NCBI GenBank assembly: GCA_038501195.1
Contig: JBBPUQ010000010.1
Coordinates: 3,871,344-3,935,343 of the forward strand
DNA length: 64,000 bases
Reading direction: 5' to 3'
Source: Nemania diffusa
Lineage: Eukaryota > Ascomycota > Sordariomycetes > Xylariales > Xylariaceae
Shown here: positions 1-64,000 of the stretch, piece after piece
How positions within the stretch are numbered: position 1 is the first letter of the stretch
Layout of the letters: each line of letters starts with the position of its first letter
The notes under the pieces: generated by a model
Told to the model about the DNA's origin: nothing
Database searches by the model: none
What the model saw: only the letters and a program-made list of their open reading frames with translations
Made by a program: the position numbers and the translations under genes

Positions 1-790
1 TAATATATATTTAAAATAAAAAAAAAATTAAAAATTAATTTTAAATTAAATTAAAATTAAATTTTTATATATAAATATAAAATTTATTTTTTAAATAAAA
101 AAAAAAAAACTAATTATAATTATTAAATTTTTAAAATAAAATTAAAAATATATATTAAATATTTAATAAAATATATAATAAAAAATTTATATAAAATTTA
201 AATTTTTTATTTATAAAAAATAATTTTAATAAAAAATATTAAATTTAATAAAAAAGTTTTTTATAATAAAAAATAAAAATATTTTAAAATTAAAATTTTA
301 AAAATATAAATAAATAAAATTAAATTAAATAAATTTAAAAATATTATAATTTTAAAAATTTAAAATTTATAAAAATTTATAATAATAATAAATTAAAAAA
401 TAAATAAAAATATTTTAAATAATTATAATAATAATATTTAATTTATTAATAAACTTTTTAATATTTATTTAAAAAAATAAAATTTAAAAATAAATATAAT
501 TATAATAAAACTAATTAAAAAATTTATTAAAAATTATATATTTTAATTATAAAAACTTTTAATTTTTTAATAAATATTTAAATTTAAAAAATAATAAAAT
601 AATATAAAAATAAAAGTTAAAAAAATAATTTAAAATAAAATAATAATATTTTTAAAAAATAAAATATTTTAAATTTTTTAAATTAATATATAAAATATTA
701 AAAATAAATTAAATAAAATTTTATAATAATATAAATATTAAATTATATTTAAAATATTAAATAAATTATTTTAAATAAAATATAAATATT
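1..790. other. AT-only, RIP-saturated DNA at the left edge
   Basis: This stretch consists almost entirely of A and T, with only a handful of G or C bases in 790. It has no credible open frame and no recognisable motif. The composition matches DNA in which nearly every mutable C:G pair has been converted to T:A, as repeat-induced point mutation does in ascomycete repeats. What it originally was cannot be read. Confidence 0.7.
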
Positions 791-1091
791 ATTAATAAAA
801 CTTTTTATATATATATATATATATAAATTTAAAATAATTTATAAAGTTTAAAATTTATTTTTAAATTTTAAAGTTTTATATTAATTTATATATATATTTT
901 ATAAAAAAAAATATAATTAAAAAAATTATATATAAATTATTTATATATATATATATATAAAACTTATGAATTTTATAAATTTTAATAAATTTTTATATTT
1001 TTTATTTATTTAATTATTTAATAAAAGTTTTAATTTAAATTTTAATTATATATATTTAATATATATATATAAATTTTATTAAATTATTAAT
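791..1091 (+). repeat. R2 repeat, copy A (LTR-like, heavily mutated)
   Basis: About 301 bp beginning ATTAATAAAACTTTTT, homologous over its full length and in the same orientation to 6,351-6,652. Differences between the two are mostly C/T and G/A, and this copy is the more AT-rich. Two direct repeats of equal length about 5.3 kb apart suggest the long terminal repeats of one retrotransposon, but no coding motif survives between them, so the LTR reading is an inference. Confidence 0.6.
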
Positions 1092-4000
1092 TTTATATTA
1101 AAGATTTTTTTTTTTATATAATAATTTTAATTTTAATATTAATTAATTTTTAATTATTTTTTTTACTATTTAATTAATTTATATATATTTTTATTTATAT
1201 AATTAATTTATTTATATTAATTAATTTTTTTAATATTTAATTAAATATTTTTTTTATATAAATATTTATTAAATTATTTTTATTATTAATTTATTATATT
1301 TTTATAATTTTATAATTTTTATATATTTTTTAAAATAATATAATATTAATTATAAATTGCTTTTTTTATATAATTTTTAATTTAATTAAATATTTATATA
1401 AAATTTTAAAATTAATATATATAATTAATAATATAATTAATAATTTTATTATATAAATAATTTTTTAAAAAGTTATATTTAATATAATAATATAATTAAA
1501 TTTATTAATTATATTATATAATTTATTTATTAATATATTATATATAATTTATTTATATTTAATTAAATTTTAATAAATAATATTATTTTTAATTATAAAA
1601 ATATTTTTTATATAGTTTTTATTAATTAATATAATTATAAATTTAATTTAAAAACTTAAATTTTTATTGTTTATAAATATTTTATTAATAAAAATAAAAA
1701 TTTTTATATAATTAAAATTTAAAAATATATAATATAGTTTTTATTATATATTATTAATTTGCTATTATATTTATATATTTAATATTTTAATATTATTTTT
1801 TAATAGTTTTTAAATTTATATAACAATTAATAAATTATATAATATTTTTAATTAATATATTAATATAATATATATATTTTAAATTTATTAAATAATATAT
1901 TATTAAAAATAATTTTTTATATAAAAATTAATAATATATAATTGTTTAATTTATTTTTATTAAATAAAAATTTTTTTTTATTTATTTATTTAAATTATAT
2001 TTTTATTAAATTTAATAAAATATTTAAATATTAATTTTATTTTTAATTTTATATAAAATAATAGCTTAATTTTTTTTTATATAAAAACTTTTTAAATATA
2101 ATATTAAAAATATTATTTATTTAAAGTTTTATAATTATAAATTTATTAAGTTTTATTTTTAATATATAATAAATATAAATTATATATAAATATTTTTATA
2201 TTTAATTTTAAATAATAATATTTATAATAAATTTTATATTAATATAATAGTTATATAATTTAAAATATAATATTTATTAAATATTTATTTTTTAATTTTT
2301 TTAATAAATAAATATAAATTCTTTGATTTAATTTATTATATAATTATATATATATTTAAAAAATATTTTATAGTTTTATATATATATTATAATTTTAAAT
2401 TAATAATAATTTTAAAGTTATAATAAACTATTAATTTATATATTAAATTATTAATATTTATATATAAATTTAAACTTTGTTATTATTTTTATAATTTTAT
2501 ATAATTAATTTAAACTTTTTATATAGTTTAATTATTTTATTTTTAATTTTTTATATAAATTTAATTTAAAAATCTTTTATTTAATTATATTAATTTAAGT
2601 TATATTATATAAATTAAAATATATTTTAAATTATTAATATATTTATTTTAATTATATTTAATTATTTAAAAAATATATTAAATATAATAATTATTTTATT
2701 TTATTTTAATTATATAATTAAAATATAATTATTAATTTTTTTTAATATAAAATATTAGTTATTAATAAATATAAATAACTTTTTTAATTTATTTTTATAT
2801 TAAAATTATAGCTATTTAATAATTTAAAAAAAATTATATAAAAAATTATTTTTTTTATATAATAAATTAAATATAATTTTTTATTAATAATATAATTTAA
2901 TTTATATATAACAAAATTTAGCTAATTTATTTATTATATTAATTATAATATTATAATTTTTAATTATAAAAATTTTATATAGTTTTATTTAGCTTTTATA
3001 TTTTTTTTATATTATAATTTTATTTTAAATTAATAAAAAAAATATTTTATATAATAATATTAATTTATTTTTAATTTATATAACTTAGTTAATATTAACT
3101 TTTATATAAATATTTTTTAATATTTTTATAATTTTTTATATAGCTTTTATTTTTTAAATAATTTTTAACAAAAAAAATAAATTACTATTAATTTTAAAAT
3201 AAATTTTAAAAACTAATAAAATAAATATAAAACTATTTAATTTAGTTATATTATTTAAAACTTTTATAATTATTTATAATATTGTTTTTTTATTTATATA
3301 ATAATTAATTTTTTTATATAAAATATTAAATATATAATAAAATAATATATATATTTATTTGACTTTTTTAATAATTTAATATGCTTTAATAAATATTTTT
3401 TTATATAAAATTCTAATTAATTATATATTATTATAAAATTTTTTAAACAAAAAATTTATATCAAAGTTATATATAATATAATTAAATAGTTTTTAATATA
3501 TTAAAATTTAATATTAATATAATATATTTTAAATATTATATATATTTAAAAACTTTAAAAATTTAGCTATTTAAAACAAAATATTTATATTAATTATATA
3601 TAAAATTAATTATTTGTTAATTTAAATAATATTAATAATAATTTTATAATTAAAATTATATTTATTTTTTAATAAAAATTTAAATTTTTTTAAAATTTAG
3701 TTATATAATTAATAATAATAATAAAACTTTTTAATTTTTTAAAATATTAAAATATTAATATTATTATTTTAGTTTTTTATAATAATTTTATAAATTTTTT
3801 TATATAAAAATATTTAAATTAATAATATAACTTTTAAAGTTTTTATTTTATAAAATAATTTATAATTTTTAATTAATTAATATTAAAAAATAAATATTTT
3901 TATTTTTATATAATTAATATTATTATATTATTTTATTATATAATTATATTTTATATATTATTAAAATAAATATATAATCGATTTATATTTTATAATAACA

Positions 4001-6012
4001 ATAAAAATAAAGTTAATATATTTAAAATATAAAATTTAATTAATTTAATCGATATTAAAATTATTATAATATTTATAACTTTAAAACTTTTAATATTATT
4101 AAATTAAATTGCTATATTATTTAAAGTTTAATTTATTAATATAAAAAAGTTTTTTTATATAAAAGTTTTAGTTTAAACTTTTTTAATAGTTAAAATTTTA
4201 ATTATATTAATATTTTATAAAATATTTTAATATTTTATATTATATTAATTATTTAAATAGAAATTATTTAATATTAATATTTAGTTTTAAATATATATTT
4301 AAATTTTTTTTATTATATAATAAAAATATATTAAATTTATTAAAAATTAAACTGTTTTATTTTAAATTTTAAAATTTAAATTATTATTAAATTTATTATT
4401 ATATAAAAAATTTTTATTATTTTTATAATTTAATATAAATATATTATATTTTTTATATAATAAAATTTTTTATTTTAAAATATTATATATAATAAAATAT
4501 TGCTTTTTTATTTTTGATTTTTTTTATTAGTTATAATTAATAAATTAATAACTAAACTTTTTATAAATAAAATATTTTTTGTTATTTTTATTATTTTTAT
4601 TATATAATTGTTATAATTTTTAATAAAAAATTTTTTTAAAGCTATAATTATATAATTGTTTTAACTATTTAATATTATATTATTTGTTAATAAAATAAAT
4701 ATTTGTTATATAATAGTAATTTATTTTTTAATTTAAAAAAATTTATAATATTATTTATAAATTAAAAAATAAAGCTTTATATATAAATTTTTAACTAATT
4801 AAAACAAATTTAAACTTAAATATATTAAAATATATTTATATAATTGCTATATAAAATAGTATTTTTTTATAATAGCTAAATTTTAAAATATATTATATAA
4901 ATTAAAACTTATTAATTATAGTTTTTAATATTTTAAATATTATTTTTATTAAATTATTTTATTTTATTTATATAAAAATAATAATAATTTAATCGATTTA
5001 ATATTAATTATAATTAATTATTATATTAAAATAATTATTAAATATTATATAAATTTTGTTTTATTTATATATTAAATTAATATAATTAAAATAATATTAT
5101 TTAATTTTTTTTTAATATAAAAAAAAATATTATATAATATTGTTTTTTAATAATTTTAAGTTAATAATATATTAAAATAAAAATTTAAGCTTTATTATAT
5201 AATATATTATATAATTTATTATTATAGTTTTAATTAAATTATTATATTTTAATAAATATAATAAATTAAACTATTATAAATAATTTAAATAAAAAAAAGT
5301 TTATATAATTAATTTTTATATATAAATAAAAATATAAAATATATAATATAAATTTTTAAATTTCTATTTATATAAAAAAATTAAATATTTAATTATTAAT
5401 ATTAAATACTATATAATATATTAATATTATTAGCTTTAATATAGTTAGTTATAATATTAAAAGATTTATTTATATAACTATTAATTTTAATATATTTGCT
5501 AGTATAAATATTGAAGCTATTTATATAAATATATTATTATTTGATTTTTTTTCGTTGTTTTTTGCTGAATTTTTTAAAAATATATATAAATCAATTATTT
5601 AATATTTTTTTATATACTTTGATATTTTTGTTATATTCAACTATTATAATAAATATTTATTTAAATATATAACTAATATTTATAAATATAAATTTTGTTC
5701 AACTATTAAAATTTATTATAAATATTTATATAAATTATTTGTTTTTGATTTTTAATCATATATATTTTTTTAAATATTATATAAAATATATTGATAATTA
5801 TATTAAAATAATTATATTATTTAAATCAATTATAATATTTTAATATTTAAAGTCAGTTTTGCTTTTTTATTTAAAAATGTTGATACTGCTTTTTTTAGTT
5901 ATATTTTTATATAAAAATAAATATAATTTTTTATTTAAAAATTTAAAATAGTTATTTTTAGCTGTTACAGCTGCAGCTGCTATAGCTAATTTTGTTACAA
6001 ATCTTAATATAG

Positions 6013-6051
<39 letters not shown>

Positions 6052-6350
6052 AAGTTAAAAAATAAATAAATAAATAAAATAATTAAAAAATTAAATATAT
6101 AAAATAGCTTATAATTTTATTGATTTTTATATAAAAATAACTAAATTATTATATAAAAAATCACTTTAATTTTGCAATATTTAAACTTTTTTTATTTAAT
6201 AGTTAATTTAACTCTTTTTTTTTTAATCGATATAAATAGTAGTTTATTTTTTATACAAAAAATAAAAAATTAAATATAAAAGCTATTTTATAACTAAACT
6301 TTGTTTTTATATTTTGTTAATTTATAATTATATTTTATAATTATTAATTA
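1092..6350. pseudogene. Interior of a probable RIP-destroyed retroelement
   Basis: No open frame survives. From about 1.1 to 5.4 kb the sequence is nearly pure A/T. From about 5.5 to 6.05 kb more G and C persist, including a GCTGTTACAGCTGCAGCTGC stretch, and a run of 30 A residues lies at 6,017-6,046. The flanking R2 copies suggest an LTR element, whereas the poly(A) run would fit the 3' end of a non-LTR element inserted there. No protein family can be identified. Confidence 0.4.
6017..6046 (+). repeat. Poly(A) tract, 30 A
   Basis: An uninterrupted run of 30 A follows a segment visibly richer in G and C than its surroundings. It could be the tail of a retroposed element or a simple homopolymer in AT-rich DNA; no target duplication was identified. 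Confidence 0.8.
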
Positions 6351-6652
6351 ATATTAATAAAACTTTTTTTATATATATATATAAAAAAATTCAAAGTAAT
6401 TTATAAAGTTTAAAGTTTATTTTTAAGTTTTAAAGTTTTATATTAATTTATATATATATTTTACAAAAAAAAATACAATTAAAAAAGTTATATATAAGTT
6501 ATTTATATATATATATATATATAATTTATAAGTTTTATAAATTTTAGTAAATTTTTATATTTTTTATTTATTTAGTTATTTAATAAAGATTTTAATTTAA
6601 GTTTTAGTTATATATACTTAGTATATATATATAAATCTTATTAAATCATTGA
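6351..6652 (+). repeat. R2 repeat, copy B (LTR-like)
   Basis: About 302 bp, direct copy of 791-1,091, with more G and C retained (for example AAATCTTATTAAATCATTGA where copy A has only A and T). Reverse-complement relatives occur at 23,443-23,720 and 24,541-24,695, so R2 is a dispersed family. The differences are dominated by transitions, as expected of RIP. Confidence 0.65.
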
Positions 6653-9600
6653 TTTAATAAATATATATATAAAATAAATTTATTAGTTTTATATATAAAT
6701 AAATATATTTAAAAAATAATATTTAAAAAATTAAAAAATAATAATAAAAATTATATAATTTTTATAACTATATTTTATAAAAAAAATAAAATATATTTTT
6801 AAAAAATAATTTTTAATAATTTTTTTTAAAAATTTTTATATTTAATTAATTAAAAATTTTATATTAAAAAAATTAAAAATATAAAATATTATATATAATA
6901 TTTATAACAATAATAAATTAAAAAAAAACTATATATTTAAATATAATATTTTAAAAATTTTATATTTATAAAAATAATTTTTTAAAATTATTATTTAAAA
7001 GCTAAAAAAACTTTTTTAAATATTTAATTAATAAATTATTTAAAACTAATGTTTATAATAAATATAAATAACTAAAAAATAATAAAACATTTAAAATTAT
7101 TTTTATATAAAATATAAAAAACAATTTATTTTTATTAAAGTAAATATTTATATATAAATTTAATAAAAATAGTTTTTTAAATATATATAAAATATATTTA
7201 ATTATTAAAAATAACTTTTAAAAAAAAATATATTTTAATTAATTTATATAATTATATTTATAATTAAAATATTTAAATTTATAATAATATTAATAGCAAT
7301 TTTTAATTTTAAAATTAAATAATTTAATATAATTAAAATATTTTTTAATATATTAAAAATTAATAAAACTTTTATAAATATATAATTTTTAAAAAACTTT
7401 AATTAAAATAACTTAATTAATAAATTTAATAAAATATTATATAGTTTAAAAAACTTTTTATTACTATAATATAAAAAATTTATTAAAATATTTAAAGTTA
7501 ATATAATAATAATTGTAAAAAAAAAATTTTATTTATTTTATATTTAAAAATATATAATATTTATTATATTTTATATAAATAATTTTTTTAATTTTATATT
7601 ATAAAACTTATAAAAAAAAAGCAAAAAAAATTATTTTAAATATTAAAAAAACTTATAAATTTAAAAATTAAAATAATTTAAAATTATTTTTAAAAAATAA
7701 TTATATTAATATATAATAAATATATTAATAAAATTATAATATATTATAAATTTAATAATTAAAATTAAGTTTTTATAATATTGCTTTTAATAAAAAAATT
7801 TAAAAAATATTTAAAAAATATAATAAAAGTAAAAATTAAATTATATTAAAAACTGATTAAATTAATTTTATATATAGCAATATTTTTAAAACTAAATATT
7901 ATATATATAATAATATAATTTTTAAAATTTTTAATTAATTTTAGTTTTATATATTATAAAACTATTTATTAAATAATTTAATATTTATATATAATATATT
8001 TTTTCGAAATTATATATAAAATATAAAACTATAAAACTTAAACTTTTTTAATAATAAAAAATGCTTTATTTATAAATAATTATAAAATTTATTACTTTTT
8101 ATATAAATATATTATATTATTATTTAAAAGTATAATTTTATAAAAACTTATTTATTAAAATATTATATTTATTTTTATTATAAAAATAAAAATAAATATA
8201 ATTAAACTTATTATAAAAAAAATAATAACTTTTAAAAAGCTATTTTATAATTTTATTTTAAAACTAAATAAAATATAAACAATTTATTTAAATAATATAT
8301 AAATAATTAAATTAATAATAAATAAAAATAAAAAAATAAATATTAAACTTAAATATATAAATATATAAAATATATAATTATATTAAAAATATTTTAAAAA
8401 AAGCTTTAAAATAATATATTTTTTTATTAATTAAATATTTGCTAATAAATTAATTAAAAATTTATTATAAATTTAATTTAAATATTTTTAAGTTTTTATT
8501 AATTTTAAAAATATAAATTATATTTATAATATAAGTTTAAAAAATAAATAAAAAAAACTTTTTAATTATTTATTAATTTATAATAATTAAAATAATTAAA
8601 AAAAAAAAAAAAAAAAAATTAAAATAAATTATATTAATTTTTATTTATTAATATTTTTAAAAAAAATATATAAAATATAAAAAAAAAAAAAATATAAAAA
8701 TATATAATATAATTATATAATAAAATATTAATAATATTAATAATATAAATAAAAAAGTTATTAATAATAAAAATATTAATAATATTAAAAAAAAAAAAAA
8801 TAAAACAGTTAAAAAAATAGTTAAAATATAAAAAGCAAATAAAAATTTAAACATATAAATAATTTAATAAAAAATATAAAAAATAAATATAAATATAAAT
8901 AATAAAAAAATAATAATAATAAACTTTTTTTTATTTATTTTAAAAACAATTTAAAAAATATTATAAAAATAAAAAAATTTTTATATAAAAACTATTAATT
9001 AAAAATTATTATAATAATTTTAAAAAATATTAAAATAAAATTGATAATTTAAAAAATTTTAAATTAAATAGTTATTATAAAATAATAAATAAATAATACT
9101 ATATAATTTATATTATATTTATATTTATTAATATAATATTTTAAATATATATAAATATAAAAAATATATATATAAATATATATATATATTTTAAAAAATA
9201 TTTATAATAATGTTAATTATAATTAATTATATTAAAATATATATTATTTTTATATTTAATAAAAATAACATTTATATAATAGTAATATAAAATTATATGT
9301 TTTTTTTTTTAAGCATAATATAAATAATAATATTTATTAAAATATAAATATAAACAAATGTTTAATAAACTATAAAGTTTAAAATATTATATTAAAAAAA
9401 AAAAAGCAAAAAAATTATTGTTATTATTATTATTAATAATAATAAAAATATAAAAAATATAAATAATAAAACAAATAATAACATTTGTATTAATAGTATA
9501 AAAATTTTAATAATTATTAGTTAAAACTAAAAGCAAAAAAAACAAAAAATATTTAAATATGTTTTTTTTTTTTAAAAAAAAAAACTAAAAAAAAAAGTTT

Positions 9601-10454
9601 TTGAAAAAAAATTAAAAATAATAATAAAAAAAAATAAAACTGCTTTTTAAAAATATTAATATATAATTAATATTTTATAATATAAAATTAAAAAATTATT
9701 TATTATATTAAAATATTATAATAAAATAATATTATTTAAAGTTTTAATTAATATAAAAACTTTTATAATTAATTTAAAAGTTTTATAAAATATATATTAA
9801 TAATAATAACAATATTTATAACTATAAATTAATTTTAAGTTTATTTATATAAAAAAAAAGTTTAAAAATTATAACTTATAAATAAATAAAAATAAAAAAA
9901 AAAAAAAAAAAATAAAAAAAATTAATTATTTTATTAGTTAATTAAGTATATAATAATTAAATAATTTTAAAAATATATTTATAAATTTAAAAAAATAACA
10001 TAAAAAAAAAAAAAAAAAATTAAAATTGTTTTATAATTAATTTATATTAAAAATATTAAAATATTAAAAATAAATTTATTTTATATATAAAAAAAAAATA
10101 TATTTTTTTTGCAATTGCTAATTTAAATTTATTAAATATATTATATATTTAATTAAACAATAAAATTGCAATTAATAAATATATATAAATATAATTTTAT
10201 TATTTAATAATTTTATAATTAAAATATAAAAAATATATTAATATAATAATATATTAAAAAAAATATATTTTTAGTTTTTCTTTTATAAAAATTAATTATT
10301 TAAAATATATAAAACTATTAAAATTGTTTAAAATATATTTTTATAAAAATTTTAAAATATAAAATTGAAAAAATTATTATTTATTTTTTTTATTAATATA
10401 TATAAAAAAAAAACAACTAAACAATTTAAAACAATTTAATTAAAAAATATATAA
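6653..10454. other. Near AT-only region without genes
   Basis: Almost pure A/T with isolated G and C, several homopolymer A runs (for example near 8,600, 9,900 and 10,000) and a short ATT/AAT trinucleotide run near 9,420-9,445. The few open frames here are composed of Phe, Ile, Leu, Tyr, Lys and Asn only, as chance frames in AT-only DNA are, and none is accepted. Confidence 0.65.
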
Positions 10455-10841
10455 TAATATAAATAAATTTAATAAAACAAACTTAAAAAGTTAAATTATA
10501 AAATTTATTTAAATAAATTTATTTAATAAAAAAACTTAAAAAAAAACTTTTATAAAAGTTTTTTTATTATTTATAATATTATTTATTAAAATTATTATTT
10601 ATTATAAACATTTATTATTATAAATAAACAAAAACAATTTTAAAATTAAAACTTAAATATAAAATATTAAACTTGATTTTAATATTTACTAAAAATATAT
10701 ATATATATATAAAGTTTAAAAATTAAAAAGTTAAAGTAACTAGAATATTAAGTAAATTTTACTTCAATATATTTTTTAAAATCGTTTTAGTTATATTGGT
10801 TCAATTCTATTTGCTAAGCTTGATCGTACTTTTATATATAA
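10455..10841 (+). repeat. R1 repeat, left copy (387 bp)
   Basis: Homologous in direct orientation and without evident length change to 23,057-23,442. The differences are almost all C-to-T or G-to-A. The left copy reads CAAACTTAAAAAGTTAAATT where the right reads CGAGCTTAAAAAGTCGGGTT, and TTATTATTTAT where the right has CCACTGCTTAC. Some positions are mutated in the right copy instead, so both were hit. It lies immediately downstream of the fusion gene's stop codon and marks the left edge of the GC-balanced island. It is probably a small mobile element. Confidence 0.75.
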
Positions 10842-10917
10842 CAAAACTTATATGTTTAATGCCCTTTTATAATCAGAACATATTATATAATCTACGTATA
10901 AACAATGAAAAAACAGT
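10842..10917. other. 3' flank of the fusion gene, isochore boundary
   Basis: About 75 bp in which composition changes abruptly from AT-only repeat to balanced coding DNA. The gene's TGA (complement of 10,918-10,920) is followed on the minus strand by AT-rich sequence that must hold the transcript's 3' end. No unambiguous polyadenylation signal could be chosen among many AT-rich candidates. Confidence 0.5.
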
Positions 10918-13900
10918 TCAGAATGTTGGCGCAATGTGTGCCCGTTCCTCCAATCCCTTCAGCCTAAATGTGCGCAGCGAATTTGTGCTAGCAGCCGAGA
11001 CGTGCCCTCGTGTGCCCGAAACAGATCTGGCTCGACTGACCAAGGTACCAGCTACGGACCTAGACGATGGAACGATGTTGTCCGATGACCCCGCCGTGTT
11101 ACTTCGTGTGCGCGAGTTGAGTTGCCCCATGAAAGTACCGAGCGCCATCTGCGCATTTGACTGTCGTTGCGGTGGGAGGTGACCCAAAGGCGGTGTGGGC
11201 GGATTTCCCCTGACTACGGGGTAATACACGCTCCCGGTGGGCGAACCGGAGCGCAAACCGTGTCTTGAGCTGGAGCGATGACGTTGTTGCTGCTGGAGCT
11301 TGCTGAGAAGCATCTCGGCAGACGGAGACGCGGCTGACGTGTGTGCGCGCGACCGGCTGGAGGCCCGGCTTTGGGGCGGGCTAGGAACCCTGCTGTTCAT
11401 CACATCTATTCCTAATGTGCCTTCGAGGCTTTGATTGGACGTCATGGCGAGCTGGGAGATCGCTTGCGATGTCTGTCTCAGCTCGTCAAAGCTCATCGCC
11501 GATGCAGGTAGTTTGCTCAGCCTCCTAATCGCTTTGTTGTTCCTCTCGACGAAGCTGCTCATGACTTTCAGAGCATTCGCGTTCTCTCGGGTGGCCAAGG
11601 CACTGGCATCCCCAGTACTTCTACCCCGGGTCTGGTGCACTGCGTTAAGATTTGTTGGGGCTTGGGACCGCGTGCTGTGATACGGTACCGCTTGTTGATT
11701 GGAGACTAAGCTGGCTTGCACTTGTGACATGACTCTCTCGAAGCCAACGTTCTGATTCTCATTGCTGCGGGACACATAGGGCGCCGAAGATTGCCCGTTT
11801 TGCAGCACATCCGTTTCCATCTTATGTGATAAAACAAAAAAGCTGCCATCGCCGATCATGCGGCGAACGAGCGTCCACCTCGTCCGAGCTGGATTGCTTT
11901 CGAGTTCGGGATGGTATATCGACTGCTGTGCTAATTGGGCGTAGAAGACGCCAAGCCGTCGAGACATTCGATCGAGAATCTGAAGAAGAAAGGTGCAGAG
12001 CGCATTGAGCCTGTGACCCTCAAAATCGGCATCGGCTCCCTCATTAGGTAAGGAATATGTTGTGGCGATGTTATCGAAAGCATCCATGCCGTTACAGGCT
12101 TCTTGGCGTATATCCTCTAGTAACTCGATATCCAACTCTACGCTCTTCGATGCGTATGCAAATACACCACGATCCTGAAAGCGCAACGAGCTCTCCTTAT
12201 CGGATATCAACTGGCCAACTAGAGCCAGCTCCTTGGTACAGGTGACGGCATCGATACCAGTCTTCGCCCGAACTATTGCGCCCAGGATGTCAGGAACCTG
12301 GATCTGAGCACTTGGATGGCTTGAATTGGCCAAACTGAACGATAGCTTCAGGACGATTTCCTGTAACTTGGGTCCGAAAAGAGCAGCAAATCCTCCCTGT
12401 AAGAGACGGCTTTGGTAAGCGTAGAAGGTCCGCACAGCAAGCGTGCTTGGAAGATTCTCTTGTAGCCAGATATTGTTGCTACCGGCCGGATCGTGCGATG
12501 ATGAGGAGTCTGACGATGCACCCATGATCTCGTACATTTCAAATTGGTGAGCCACTAATGTCTCGACAGTCGATCGTAGATACGCCGCCCATGAAGCGTA
12601 TAATGGGGTTATCTCGTCGTGATCGCTCTGAAAATCAGGTTCCGGGGAAAGGTGCCCTACAAAGTATTTCGTGAGTAGACTTGCGACCTCTGGGTTATTC
12701 GTGTGTGCGAGATTATCAAATGATTTGGTGCAATCAACACCGGCGTTTGACTTGATAATCATCGTTCCTCCGGGGTGCATAGGACAGAAATCCGTAACGT
12801 CATATACGCTACCGTGAACTCCTATCCACATCTTAGAGCCGGGTCGATGACCAGTATGTAGGGCAAGCTGTGACATGGCAATGGTGGGCAGGTTGCATGG
12901 CAGTGGCTTCGGAGTCATAAACACATCAAGCATGAATCTACGCTCCGCAAAGGCTCTATCGACGATAAGGTCGACCTTCTCCATCGTGGCTGTGCAATGG
13001 GTATAGACAGCCTTACGAACACCATTGATAACTGAATCAAATACTGACACGGAACCACAGACGTACAGGTACCCGCCAAGACCTCCCTGCTTCTTAGACA
13101 TGACAAGTTCCGAAATGGTAGCACCTTGTTCCTGTATAAGAACATCGATATAACGGGGAGGAGTAGGCCGCTCAACAAGGTCATGGAGATAGGGGTCATG
13201 GGCAAGACCTCGTGTGTCTCGCGAGAAGGCGAGATGAACTTCCATGAAACCGGCATTCACATACTCGCGCAGCTCTTCCTCAAAACAAAACTTTTCTCGC
13301 GATTGTACACCAAGATAGAGGTAATTTTTACCTCCTGAGAGGCCCCCTTTGGCGAAGCGAGACTGCCAAAAGCTCCGAAATGGCGCGATACCGCTACCAC
13401 CGGCAAAAAAGGCACATGGGGCCATCGTGTCTAGAGGAAGTTGAAAGGCAGCTGGGCGCGACACGCCAAAGATAATCTCCTCATCATCCATCATCTCGGA
13501 GGACGGCCATGGGTTTAGGAACCCACTGGACACACCTGCACGGGAGATGTCTTCGTGTCCCGAGAAAGTAGAGCAAAGCTTGTATTCCGCTCTTGAAACT
13601 GCAAGGTCCACGGTGCTTGGGAGGAGTTCTTCAGTGTAGCTTGCGATGGAATATGTGCGCGGGACTTCTAGGGTAATCAAGTCACTCAGCCAGGTGATGC
13701 TGTCGAGATTAAATGTCTTGTCCCAAATCTGAGGTGGAGTGTCCATCAAAGCGCTTTGGAGGAGATCACCTAGGGACCCGCGTACAGGCCACTCGTTTGT
13801 GCCCAACACTTGCAAGACTGTATTAGAGGAAGCACGTAGTAGGCTATGGATCTTCAAAGCAAGTTCTTTGGTGATCGGTGCAAGGTGTCCGCGACGAAGG

Positions 13901-16134
13901 ATATCCTTGACCGTAAGCTTCTGTGGCTTTGTCCGTCTCACAGATGCCAAATGCCGCTCAAATCGCAACCAAGGTCCTTTGACTTCGACTTCACTGTCGA
14001 TCAGGTTCTCTAGTCCAAGGGCAGCAGCTACTTTGGCGCACTCCTCCCAGCTGTTGAGCGGCATGACAGCCAGGCGATCACCAGGCATAAAGGTGACACC
14101 CGATTCTTGGAGATCGAGAGTTACTAGGGCGATGGTTCGACTTGGGTCGGAGTCGACAAATGATCGACTAAGAACTCGAGAAATGTACCGGCACTCTTCG
14201 AAACTTCCGCGCATTTGATGTGGCTCTACATCTAGCGCACCACCTAAGGGTCTGTTAGCGATGGGTCTCCAACTGCATGACAATGCCAATACCTACGATA
14301 TGGCTCAAGGCGCTCCTTCATGGCTTCAGAAAATTGCTTATGTGTCTCCTCCCAAGGTCTGCCTTGATCAGCTGCCCCCGAGGCGCCATTGGTCTCTGTT
14401 CGGCCTGTTTTTCCAGCTATTTCTAGTATCCCGAATACTTTATATCTGTGAACTCCCATAAAGCCCCGTTCACCCGTGTATGCTTCAATGATACCATCCA
14501 TCACACCTAACAGACGCGGATCGCCAGACTGTTCGACAAACTCCGGAACGCGGTAATGATACTCGATGGATGCGATAAATGCACGAAGATTCGATGGGAG
14601 CCATGCTCGAAGATGAACCCCCTCGGCGCCTAGAAAACTGTTGTACTTTTTCCGCCCAAGAAACGCATCCATAACCAAGTAAGGAGGGAATTGTAATCCG
14701 CTTGAGGCAGGACAACGGGTCGATAAAGGGGCAGAGAACTTGGCCCAACGTACCCATTTTTGGGCAGATACATAGTTTTCTCCAGCATTGGGGTTTGTCG
14801 AAATAGAATGAAAGGCGTTAGGCATTCGTTCCAAAATCTCCTTCAGCCGGATCATCTCCGTTAGAAGACCTTCGATATTCTTATTCATCACATGCTCTTG
14901 ACACGCAGCAATAGCATCAGGTCCGTGCTGGAACGAAGCTGATGTGTCCGCCACCCCTTTAAGAAATGCAATCTCTGCTTGTTCGCCGAACATTGGCCAA
15001 CGGAGCTCCGTATTATCGAAACGGGCCACGTAGGGGTAGATTGAAGTGGTATCCTTTATCTTCATGTTGTAGGACGACTGGTCGACAAAGGTCAAGTGCG
15101 GTAAAGCCCTCCCCATTCGCCGGGAAATTTGATAGTATGGTAAGGCAATACTGAGAGGGATGCCAACTAGCTCTTCTCCCAGATCGTCACCCATGGGGCA
15201 GTTTGGTCTTGTCCTCTTCGAATGGTTGGTAGTGACACCGTCATTTCCGTCATATTTGTCATGAAAACGGTAGATATGACAGAGTAAGCCGAGAGCCACT
15301 ATCGCTGCCCATAATGCCTGATTTGGGATATTTTCCTCGGTGCCCTCGACAAGAAGCAAAGCTGCGACGGACTCACGGACTCGCCCGCGAGCCACACAGC
15401 CAGGCATTCGCTCGCATAGATCTGACCACACACGCCCAGGAGTTTTTGCTAACACTCCTGCCGATTCGTCGTAGTCTGGGGGACAGAAGCCGTGTTCTCT
15501 ACTGAGATACCCGTCGATCCAACCCGTTCTCGGACCAATCTCTTCAGCTCTCGCCACTACAACACTCTCGGTTAGTAATTCCCGGTTTGAGCACGATCTA
15601 AATGGTTTCGAGGCACCTGATTTCGCCTGAAAAGAGTCCTATTCCACTCTGCGAGTAACTAGAACGGGAAGAAAATAACTGCCAGAATGACTTACTAACT
15701 TGCCTTGCTGGCGCACCCAACGCAATTGCAAGAAGGTCTTGTTCATTTGCATTGAAAGCATCTATCTCTGCTTGACTCTTTGCAGCCTGTATTATTTGTG
15801 GCGTGGGTATATTTGAGTAGAGCAACTGATTAATGGATTTCCGTTCCCTGCTTTATCATTAGTTTTCTTCCCATCTTCATGAATGTTAGGAGAGAAGAGG
15901 AAGTAGCCCTTACCGCATCCGCAGCCATTCTTCAGAATCTACTGCTTGTGGAATCTACAAGAGTTAGTTAATCACTACAGTGCTACTTTGATTGTCACGT
16001 ACATCAAATGCTTCGCGCAGGTTGCCCGGCTGACTAAAGCCAGAGAAGGAACATCCTCGAGGTCCTACTCGATTATTACCCGCTGGGCAGGTCCCCCGTA
16101 CGGAGGCAGAAGCTGGGCAAGATCGTTCAGACAT
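10918..16134 (-). CDS. IDO-type heme dioxygenase / NADPH-FAD reductase / cytochrome b5 fusion, 1,636 aa, 5 exons
   Basis: Exons (minus strand): 16,134-16,003; 15,954-15,914; 15,847-15,696; 15,556-14,297; 14,243-10,918. They sum to 4,911 nt with consistent phases. Residues 1-114 are an unrecognised extension. Residues 115-529 are an IDO-superfamily domain, with the expected proximal heme His478 in GFMGVHRYKVFG followed by KTGRTETNG. Residues 545-972 are a P450-reductase-type FAD/NADPH module: RTYS 724-727, GVSS 765-768, GGSGIAPFRSF 810-820, AFSRD 867-871 (NADPH 2'-phosphate type), CGS 924-926 and RFMLDVF ending at 970. Residues 985-1,061 are cytochrome b5 with heme ligands His1018 (HPGG) and His1042, the canonical 24 apart. 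Residues 1,068-1,335 look helical and 1,338-1,636 are Ser/Arg/Gln-rich. No FMN domain, signal peptide or membrane anchor is seen, so it is probably cytosolic. Inferred role: NADPH electrons pass via FAD to b5 and reduce the dioxygenase heme. The exact first exon is the least certain part, and the substrate is unknown. Confidence 0.8.
14244..14296 (-). other. Intron 4 (53 nt): joins the IDO and reductase frames
   Basis: On the minus strand it runs from GTAGGT through the branch site GCTAAC to CCTTAG. The IDO frame terminates at exactly this TAG, and the reductase frame has no ATG until 14,214. Splicing joins the C of the preceding exon to GT of the next, giving CGT (Arg529) and continuing in the reductase frame. 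Signals, length, branch-to-acceptor spacing of about 10 nt and phase all agree. Confidence 0.85.
15557..15695 (-). other. Intron 3 (139 nt) of the fusion gene
   Basis: Donor GTAAGT, branch sequence TTACTAAC and acceptor TTGTAG. The unspliced upstream frame runs into a stop at 15,598-15,600. Splicing joins A to TG, creating Met109 in ARQVMARAEEIG. Somewhat long for a filamentous-fungal intron, but both splice signals are strong and the phase fits. Confidence 0.8.
15848..15913 (-). other. Intron 2 (66 nt) of the fusion gene
   Basis: Donor GTAAGG, candidate branch sites CCTAAC and ACTAAT, acceptor AAAGCAG. It joins CG to G (Arg58) and gives the continuous reading SEEWLRMRERKSINQLLYSN. An alternative acceptor at 15,826 (ATCAG) would fit only a shorter model starting at the ATG at 15,928. 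Confidence 0.7.
15955..16002 (-). other. Intron 1 (48 nt) of the fusion gene
   Basis: Donor GTACGT, branch AACTAAC and acceptor TTGTAG. It is phase 0, joining GAT to ATT (Asp44-Ile45). Without removal the frame stops inside the AACTAAC branch sequence. The branch-to-acceptor distance is short (about 8 nt) but within what fungal introns use. Confidence 0.65.
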
Positions 16135-18220: not shown

Positions 18221-19183
18221 CTAAGCCTTCTCCTTTCTCTTCCTGTCCAGATCGTCCATGTACTCGTCGTAGGTTGGAGGGTTGTCACCACTGGCCGGGT
18301 TGTAGTCCAACGCGTGCTCTTTAAGGTAGTCGAGGACGTTGTCGAGCGTCTCGTTACGCGCACCGCCAATGAGCTTCATGTGCGTCAGAGGCGACTCCCA
18401 GCCGCCCATCTCCATGACCTGCTTTATTGTGGTGCAGTCGAAGATATCGCACTCGAAATGAGCGTCTGTCCCGCGGTATTTATACGTAGTGGCTTCGTCA
18501 AAGCCATCGTAAGCGTGAATGACTTTGCTGTTGCTGGTGACAAGGCAGAACTGCACGCCTAGCTTATCGCGCACTTCCGCACATTTTGTGATTTCCTTGA
18601 TCTGGGCAGCAGCGTCCATAACGAGATTCTTGAGGGGCTCCAGGTTTACTGTCCCATCGTCTAAGACGGTTATATTGTCGTCAACGCCGTCGAGAAACCA
18701 GACCAAGGTCAGTGCCTTGGCACTGGGGTCCTTCGTGACTTTGTTCACGTAGGCGCTCAGAGCGGCTTCCAGCGTTTCGGCTAGAGGGGTGCTGCCGCCG
18801 GACCTGAACCCATCAACAAACTGATTGATGCTCTCGCGGTCATTGAAGCCCGTGTTATGGCGCTTTGGTCCCATACCAGCGAACCTGCTGGCATTGCTTG
18901 TGATAAGCCACTGTTCGATTTCATCGTCGTGGTTCAGGGCTTCTGCGCCAATGGCCTTGACTCCTTTTCGGATCTCGGCAAGACGACGCATGTTGGGATC
19001 CGATGCCGGTAATTCGCCATCTAAAGTCCAGTCGAAACAGGTGGAGCCGGAAAGGTCGCTTCCAATCTGGACGTCGGAACCCTCGATGGTTTTTCGGAAC
19101 TCCCCTTGCATAAGGCGCCAGATAGCGACAGGAATCTGATACCTGCCGTGCCGGACAAAATCCGAGGATGCGGCGGAAGCCAT
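18221..19183 (-). CDS. VWA (von Willebrand factor A-like) domain protein, 320 aa
   Basis: Single-exon frame from ATG at 19,183 (MASAASSDFVRHGRYQIPVA) to TAG at 18,221. The metal-ion-dependent adhesion site is complete: DLSGS with Asp43, Ser45 and Ser47, Thr132 in GGSTPLAETL, and Asp165 in LVWFLDG. VWA domains of this kind bind Mg2+ and mediate protein-protein contacts. No signal peptide or membrane segment is visible, so an intracellular protein is likely. The C-terminus is charged (DEYMDDLDRKRKEKA). This ATG is preferred over upstream in-frame codons because the preceding 180 nt are pyrimidine-rich and leader-like and a TATAAAG lies about 190 nt upstream. The fold assignment is solid; the biological role is unknown. 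It is separated by 2.1 kb from the fusion gene and need not be functionally linked. Confidence 0.8.
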   Translation of the reverse strand: MASAASSDFVRHGRYQIPVAIWRLMQGEFRKTIEGSDVQIGSDLSGSTCFDWTLDGELPASDPNMRRLAEIRKGVKAIGAEALNHDDEIEQWLITSNASRFAGMGPKRHNTGFNDRESINQFVDGFRSGGSTPLAETLEAALSAYVNKVTKDPSAKALTLVWFLDGVDDNITVLDDGTVNLEPLKNLVMDAAAQIKEITKCAEVRDKLGVQFCLVTSNSKVIHAYDGFDEATTYKYRGTDAHFECDIFDCTTIKQVMEMGGWESPLTHMKLIGGARNETLDNVLDYLKEHALDYNPASGDNPPTYDEYMDDLDRKRKEKA

Positions 19184-19369
19184 TGCGTCTGAGTGAAAAG
19201 ATTCGGATTGCGTGAGTAGAAAAGGAGTATAATAAGAAGGATGGAGGGTGCAGAGCGACGAGAAATATGAAAATTTGCTAATGAAGAGTCCTAGGACGAA
19301 GATTGGAGTGTGCTGCGAAGTGTTGGATGTTGATGCTTCAAACTGGAGTGAACGCGAGACTGACGCCGG

Positions 19370-19376
19370 CTTTATA
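19370..19376 (-). promoter_or_regulatory. TATA box of the VWA gene
   Basis: TATAAAG on the minus strand, about 187-193 nt upstream of the chosen ATG. It is followed by a CT-rich leader typical of filamentous-fungal transcription starts, which leaves a 5' UTR of roughly 100-160 nt. Confidence 0.55.
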
Positions 19377-19417
19377 GACATCTGAGCAAGGCTTAGCCGG
19401 ACGAGGCACACATACGC

Positions 19418-63856: not shown

Positions 63857-64000
63857 TTAGGGTTATTAGGGTTAGGGTTAGGGTTAGGGTTAGGGTTAGG
63901 GTTAGGGTTAGGGTTAGGGTTAGGGTTAGGGTTAGGGTTAGGGTTAGGGTTAGGGTTAGGGTTAGGGTTAGGGTTAGGGTTAGGGTTAGGGTTAGGGTTA
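63857..64000 (+). repeat. Telomere, (TTAGGG)n
   Basis: One TTAGGG, then TTA, then about 22.5 uninterrupted TTAGGG units to the last base. The G-rich strand runs 5' to 3' towards position 64,000, so that is the physical chromosome end. TTAGGG is the usual telomere repeat of filamentous ascomycetes and is the only simple repeat here containing GGG. Confidence 0.99.

Follow-up and report, generated by a model that had tools for sequence, protein, structure and literature searches.

An IDO-type heme domain joined to a FAD/NADPH reductase and cytochrome b5 in one predicted protein of filamentous ascomycetes and actinobacteria

In a 64,000-nucleotide stretch of the Nemania diffusa genome, referred to here as the window, a minus-strand gene is predicted to encode one protein in which an IDO-type heme domain is followed by a FAD/NADPH reductase and a cytochrome b5 domain. 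Self-sufficient heme oxygenases are a kind already known; what is new here is the IDO scaffold without an FMN domain and the encoding of the fungal fusion as an intronless single frame in actinobacteria as well. Among the matches listed from the open-access literature (PMC), none described this fusion, to judge from titles and the beginnings of abstracts; one may exist among subscription articles. We lean slightly toward a reading in which the IDO-type heme, fed through FAD and b5, would use electrons and O2 in each turnover on a small, probably aromatic substrate.

The gene model is as follows; coordinates are positions in the window, and residue numbers refer to the 1,636-residue model.

10918..16134, minus strand: complete coding sequence, from the ATG at 16134-16132 to the stop at 10920-10918, 1,636 amino acids in five predicted exons
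16003..16134, minus strand: exon 1, predicted; N-terminus agrees with the Nemania diffusa protein P0001
15955-16002, minus strand: intron 1, 48 nucleotides, predicted
15914..15954, minus strand: exon 2, predicted
15848-15913, minus strand: intron 2, 66 nucleotides, predicted
15696..15847, minus strand: exon 3, predicted
15557..15695, minus strand: intron 3, 139 nucleotides, GTAAGT...ACTAACCGAGAGTGTTGTAG, predicted and supported by homologues
14297..15556, minus strand: exon 4, predicted; IDO-fold heme domain, residues ~109-528
14244..14296, minus strand: intron 4, at the join of the IDO and reductase parts, 53 nucleotides, GTAGGT...GCTAACAGACCCTTAG, predicted
10918..14243, minus strand: exon 5, predicted; reductase, b5, C-terminal domain and tail

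Two long minus-strand frames underlie the gene, one at 14,244-15,557 with the Pfam IDO match and one at 10,918-14,289 with Cyt-b5, FAD_binding_1 and NAD_binding_1. All four introns have GT..AG ends and a CTAAC- or CTAAT-type site near the 3' end, and the spliced product contains no internal stops. A four-intron structure giving 1,636 residues had been proposed in a sequence-only reading of the window; the same length was reproduced here, and the product is identical to P0001 at 1,615 of 1,636 positions without a gap. Splicing in Nemania diffusa is in each case predicted. An alternative model of 1,658 amino acids, using another acceptor for intron 3, was dropped, since homologues read QVMARAEE at that join. 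The query of the homologue search and the folded IDO piece follow this longer model and carry about 23 intron 3-derived residues at one end; in the fold comparison of the IDO piece, most rows start at model residue 49 at least, and a few at 19 or 23.

The join between the IDO and reductase parts is not peculiar to this gene. A search over 5.8 billion proteins found 314 homologues, and our statements rest on the best 120 of them. Every one of these 120 fungal proteins spans the junction, and 116 carry all four Pfam domains, with P0005, P0006, P0051 and P0106 each lacking one; the fusion proposed from the window is in this way confirmed. It is nevertheless conceivable that two adjacent genes, one for IDO and one for reductase and b5, were falsely joined through a false intron. 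Split models of this kind exist in Colletotrichum spaethianum, where P0194 is an IDO-only protein of 293 amino acids and P0129 a reductase-b5 protein of 1,257; the contig that carries each is 693,361 bases long. Moreover, a reductase-b5 query returned 357 proteins, 30 of the best 120 being new, and 29 of these 30 have no IDO in their Pfam list (26 of the 30 have lgn, jgi or ena as their source). Yet 22 of the same 30 still span the junction, as do all 120 listed homologues, and just ahead of the join E523 is conserved in 39 and R524 in all of 40 rows. The reductase frame has its first ATG no earlier than residue 26 of the open frame. The bacterial homologues described below are single frames that need no splicing, which strongly disfavors a gene-model artifact at the join, and we regard two separate genes as barely credible.

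Carriers identified by name include Xylaria, Daldinia, Colletotrichum, Fusarium, Podospora, Pyricularia, Verticillium and others, to which a second, length-limited search added Bimuria and Didymella; these presumably cover Sordariomycetes and Dothideomycetes. The architecture is thus widespread in filamentous ascomycetes and is not a one-genome curiosity. A profile search restricted to 244-775 amino acids, which scored only candidates sharing most words and was judged by names, domains, lengths and contigs, revealed no separate family of standalone IDO ancestors among 120 listed of 127 proteins; the proteins found look like pieces of the fusion. Members carry uninformative or misleading names, such as "cytochrome b5-like," "sulfite reductase flavoprotein alpha" and "nitric-oxide synthase, salivary gland"; P0075, P0083, P0086, P0108 and P0129 are named "nitric-oxide synthase, salivary gland" or "brain." The NOS-type names probably stem from the reductase part.

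Within the protein, the following parts were placed in addition to the heme domain of exon 4.

14448..14450, minus strand: codon of H478, the predicted proximal heme ligand, in the motif G..G.HR.K, from homologue alignment
12919..14208, minus strand: FAD/NADPH module of the CPR/SiR/NOS type without an FMN domain, residues ~541-970, from motif residues
12649..12870, minus strand: cytochrome b5 domain with ligands H1018 and H1042, from Pfam (1.9e-15) and ligand conservation
11827..12615, minus strand: helical C-terminal domain, residues ~1,072-1,334, conserved in fungi and also aligning with the bacterial proteins, including the form without the reductase
10921..11826, minus strand: variable C-terminal tail, predicted to be disordered (pLDDT mostly below 50), mostly gapped or variable in the fungal alignment

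The Pfam matches run in the order IDO, FAD_binding_1, NAD_binding_1 and Cyt-b5, with E-values of 1.7e-10, 1.6e-8, 1.7e-7 and 1.9e-15. The IDO profile (PF01231) scored 40.7 bits against a curated cut-off of 26, and a fold comparison of the predicted model assigned the heme domain to the IDO fold. The heme-ligand region GFMGVHRYKVFG is present in the product, and the putative ligand H478 is kept in all of 110 fungal homologues (the members of 1,500-1,720 amino acids among the best 120) as well as in all 40 rows of a mixed fungal and bacterial alignment. When ten fungal IDO domains were compared with the canonical IDO of the host by hhalign, no signal was obtained (probability, 0.4%; both profiles are thin); this result is offset by the Pfam, PDB-profile and fold comparisons, which carry the IDO assignment.

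Diflavin-type FAD/NADPH modules depend on an RxYS motif, a Cys and an Asp as functional residues, and all of these are found in exon 5 (R724-x-Y-S727, C924 and D968), together with GGSG at 810-813, S869-R870 and F970. No flavodoxin family, as expected of an FMN domain, appeared in Pfam scans of the window frames and bacterial fusions or in the Pfam lists of the 120 listed homologues; the IDO domain occupies the place of the N-terminal FMN domain of diflavin reductases. P450, NOS oxygenase and globin families were likewise absent from the Pfam scans and from those 120 lists. For exon 5, the NCBIfam matches, to sulfite reductase and related flavoproteins, all stayed below the cut-off, and exon 4 had none. 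In one comparison of exon 5, the rows covered mostly residues 8-442, so that it is silent on b5 and the C-terminal part. The b5 ligands H1018 (in HPGG) and H1042, 24 residues apart, are both conserved in 110 of 110 fungal homologues. The IDO-family heme-ligand region, the CPR-type FAD/NADPH motifs and the b5 domain with its 24-residue His spacing, all named in the sequence-only reading, are therefore borne out by family matches and conserved residues; what that reading missed is the helical C-terminal domain. The latter matched no known family (its best PDB sequence match, with an E-value of 0.04, was taken as chance, and its fold was not searched alone).

A scan of prokaryotes with the fungal IDO profile, one genome per species, gave 15 pattern matches, two of which were confirmed, in Acrocarpospora catenulata and Streptomyces sp. 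NEAU-Y11. Both loci hold the entire fusion in a single intronless frame, of 1,132 and 1,188 residues, respectively, with the four Pfam families in the same order as in fungi and with a stronger IDO match (E-values of 2.3e-36 and 9.4e-34; 125.9 and 117.3 bits). Genome searches with the Acrocarpospora protein at an E-value of 1e-60 or better found the fusion in 19 of the 345 genomes searched in its order (Streptosporangiales, according to NCBI) and in 3 of 396 genomes drawn from the phylum; of 394 genomes sampled from the family to which the Streptomyces genome belongs, 4 matched, two of them with only a short form. Genome G001 is counted in both the order and the phylum samples, and G002 in the family sample. 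We compared 18 of the 24 full-length bacterial loci, leaving out six close ones, and three short ones. The window protein shares 25-27% identity with the 18 bacterial proteins over 1,064-1,169 aligned positions; the C-terminal tail is absent from the bacterial rows compared. PADLOC matched no defence system. Among plasmids, 91 records matched, none covering 80% of the query, and the best 20 of the 91 match the reductase part only.

The short form, found in three proteins of 644-690 amino acids, consists of IDO, b5 and the C-terminal part without the reductase, and is encoded at the following positions of the respective loci.

L055, 8676-10658: short form
L058, 598-2670: short form
L059, 1396-3330: short form

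The genes in L058 and L059 adjoin homologous neighbors; the one in L058 is an AraC-type regulator by Pfam. In the IDO tree, the three short proteins group with the bacterial side, with weak support. The helical C-terminal domain is common to the fungal, full-length bacterial and short forms. Judging by the short form, the core would consist of IDO, b5 and the C-terminal domain, and b5 would be the direct electron partner of the IDO heme.

Many of the bacterial loci have additional parts. An FHA domain is located at the N-terminus in 13 of the 18 full-length fusions (detected by tblastn with the FHA domain of L049, and by Pfam in L042 and L049), and a gene with CBS domains lies directly upstream on the same strand in 15 of 18 loci (by Pfam in L043 and L052). 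These 15 are L041-L054 and L056, and all of them except L052 and L053 have the FHA domain; in L053 the CBS gene overlaps the start of the fusion frame, and in L052 its product also has a weak, sub-cut-off match to a response regulator. The CBS gene is the one neighbor that recurs widely, most other neighbors having no annotation. Pfam detected neither family in the frames of the window, and neither is present in the Pfam lists of the listed fungal homologues. In bacteria, the FHA domain and the CBS partner would bring in regulation by phosphorylation and by nucleotide state.

Fungi and bacteria each occupy one side (100/100) of a tree of 37 full-length rows, which is unrooted and has several long bacterial branches. 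With the host IDO L001 and a stretch of IDO1 as the outgroup, the entire fusion family forms one clade (100/100) with weak inner support, the bacterial side reaching 80/25 with these two canonical rows. A single exchange between bacteria and fungi, in one direction or the other, would be the simplest reading.

How could such a protein work? In the scheme we propose, NADPH would reduce FAD, which would hand single electrons to the b5 heme, and b5 would in turn reduce the IDO heme, where O2 would bind. With no FMN domain found, b5 would serve in its place as the wire, a one-electron carrier. A dioxygenase needs no net electrons, and a covalently attached NADPH reductase is thus easiest to understand if every cycle consumes electrons, as in a monooxygenase, and not priming alone. 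For this reason, and because the residues that hold tryptophan in IDO1 are not clearly conserved, an NADPH-consuming oxygenase is favored over a merely primed tryptophan dioxygenase, and its substrate would not be L-tryptophan held in the usual IDO way. That the protein supplies its own electrons, as claimed earlier, is what an intact FAD/NADPH module and a b5 beside the heme domain most naturally suggest, while the word "dioxygenase" is unproven; similarly, the proposed likeness to CYP505 is apt as regards the fusion of a reductase to a heme domain but fails in that this reductase has no FMN domain.

Several points weigh against electron use in every turnover. PrnB, a superfamily member, is reported to give no product with CPR or b5, so the presence of such partners guarantees no turnover (PMC11791213). 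The electron-consuming chemistry is, furthermore, argued from architecture alone and may prove otherwise. The mean AlphaFold pLDDT is 58.9 for the IDO piece and 60.2 for exon 5, with the b5 region mostly below 50, and these models do not fix how the domains sit relative to one another. Of 18 bacterial rows, two lack R870, a residue expected for NADPH, and one lacks D968. Lastly, R378 is present in 19 of 19 fungal rows near the place of IDO1 R231, in a register that differs between alignments, so that tryptophan might be bound after all.

The heme pocket bears on what is oxidized. F226, R231 and the GTGGT loop of IDO1 bind L-Trp. At the place of IDO1 S167, the 19 fungal rows have C (14) or V (5), and the 18 full-length bacterial rows T (14), Q (2), P (1) or F (1). 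The place aligned with the fungal R378 is L, V or I in the 18 bacterial rows; V377 and W379 are invariant in all 40 rows. The L-Trp-binding residues of IDO1 were not seen in the bacterial rows, and the alignment made offers no counterpart to the GTGGT motif of L001. Judged by these residues, tryptophan appears doubtful as a substrate.

A primed tryptophan dioxygenase would cleave L-Trp or a relative and use the reductase and b5 only to reduce or rescue ferric heme. The IDO fold and the proximal His are consistent with this, the fungal R378 could anchor a carboxylate, and b5 has been suggested as the physiological reductant of IDO (PMC4191572). However, the S167 place, the R378 place (in bacteria) and the GTGGT motif are not clearly conserved, two strong IDO genes and a diverged one are present in the host anyway, and a permanent reductase would exceed the need for priming; we consider priming alone unlikely. 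The combination of a heme domain with an FNR-type reductase in one chain is reminiscent of flavohemoglobin, and the protein might be an analogue of it on an IDO fold that turns NO and O2 into nitrate, or otherwise handles NO and O2, with the heme re-reduced in each turn. According to a review, b5 can support NO dioxygenation by globins, but an IDO-like oxy myoglobin is incapable of high-fidelity NO dioxygenation (PMC3820574). The FHA and CBS parts in bacteria would fit a role in NO handling; on the other hand, the CBS gene is the sole widely recurring neighbor seen and most other neighbors have no annotation, so that context says little, and such a role is improbable in our view.

The same FHA (13 of 18) and CBS (15 of 18) parts, along with a conserved helical C-terminal domain without an assigned role, would also suit a non-catalytic sensor, in which the IDO heme would respond to O2, NO or redox state and the signal would be relayed by the C-terminal domain. 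Yet the full set of reductase catalytic residues is kept in fungi, which argues for electron turnover, and FHA and CBS families were not detected by Pfam in the window or the listed fungal homologues; a sensor is therefore very improbable. The NADPH-consuming oxygenase is the reading that we carry forward.

The gene lies in an island of 36-56% GC at about 11-22 kb of the window, within a host genome of 55.6 Mb. The flanks (1-10,900 and 22,000-63,850) consist of AT-rich blocks with 0.1-16% GC per kb. The right end of the window is the end of contig C10 and has 23 TTAGGG units from 63,857 (63,857-64,000); such an array at a contig end indicates a telomere, placing the fusion gene in a subtelomeric position, about 48 kb inward. 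A neighboring minus-strand frame of 396 amino acids (18,221-19,411) had no Pfam match at 1e-3. Elsewhere in the host genome there are two strong IDO genes (L001 and L002/L003) and a diverged IDO-like paralogue (L004; G000:C5:1796417-1797190). In two further host loci, L010 and L012, a flavodoxin-like frame precedes FAD/NADPH parts, with a P450-like heme-binding motif first in L012; from a reading of motifs, without a family scan, we take these to be likely CYP505-type self-sufficient P450s.

The fusion is distinct from each system that it resembles. Compared with IDO (IDO1, IDO2 and the fungal IDO alpha, beta and gamma), its IDO domains form a separate clade (100/100, with two canonical rows only), its distal and substrate residues are not clearly kept, and it adds a reductase, b5 and the C-terminal domain. 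In CYP102/BM3 and CYP505, the heme belongs to a Cys-ligated P450, whereas the fusion has an IDO heme with a predicted His ligand, no detectable FMN domain, and b5 after the reductase. As in NOS, a heme domain is joined to a NOS/CPR-type reductase, and NOS is the best solved-structure match of the fusion reductase, but no NOS oxygenase or FMN domain was found in the fusion. The nitrate reductase of the trHb-nitrate reductase fusion also has a b5 domain; we know of no helical C-terminal domain in that fusion or in flavohemoglobin. Both of these combine an O2-binding heme domain and an FNR-type module in one chain (PMC3820574), with a globin where the present fusion has an IDO fold. Other members of the wider IDO/TDO superfamily catalyze other reactions and are set apart by their descriptions, which, in the part of the source at hand, do not mention reductase fusions (PMC11791213). 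Knocking out four NOS-like genes of Neurospora crassa, which may or may not include the fusion, is reported to have left NO level, growth and conidiation unchanged (PMC4948021). It is possible, though somewhat short of an even chance, that the proteins described here constitute an undescribed cross-kingdom family: a P450-like, NADPH-consuming oxygenase on the IDO fold, with an FHA/CBS switch in many bacteria and a short form that borrows its reductase.

The reductant of IDO in vivo is debated. CPR, with or without b5, serves as a donor to IDO1 in vitro, and a 2026 preprint calls the operation of these donors in vivo unclear (PMC13142367). In the fusion, a single chain combines these types of candidate donor with an IDO-type heme, and fungi and actinobacteria alike retain the join, so that one purified protein would suffice to test the electron path. 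If electrons are indeed spent in each turnover, the family would explain fungal genes named "sulfite reductase" or "nitric oxide synthase, salivary gland" and would provide a histidine-ligated counterpart of P450-BM3, useful for biocatalysis.
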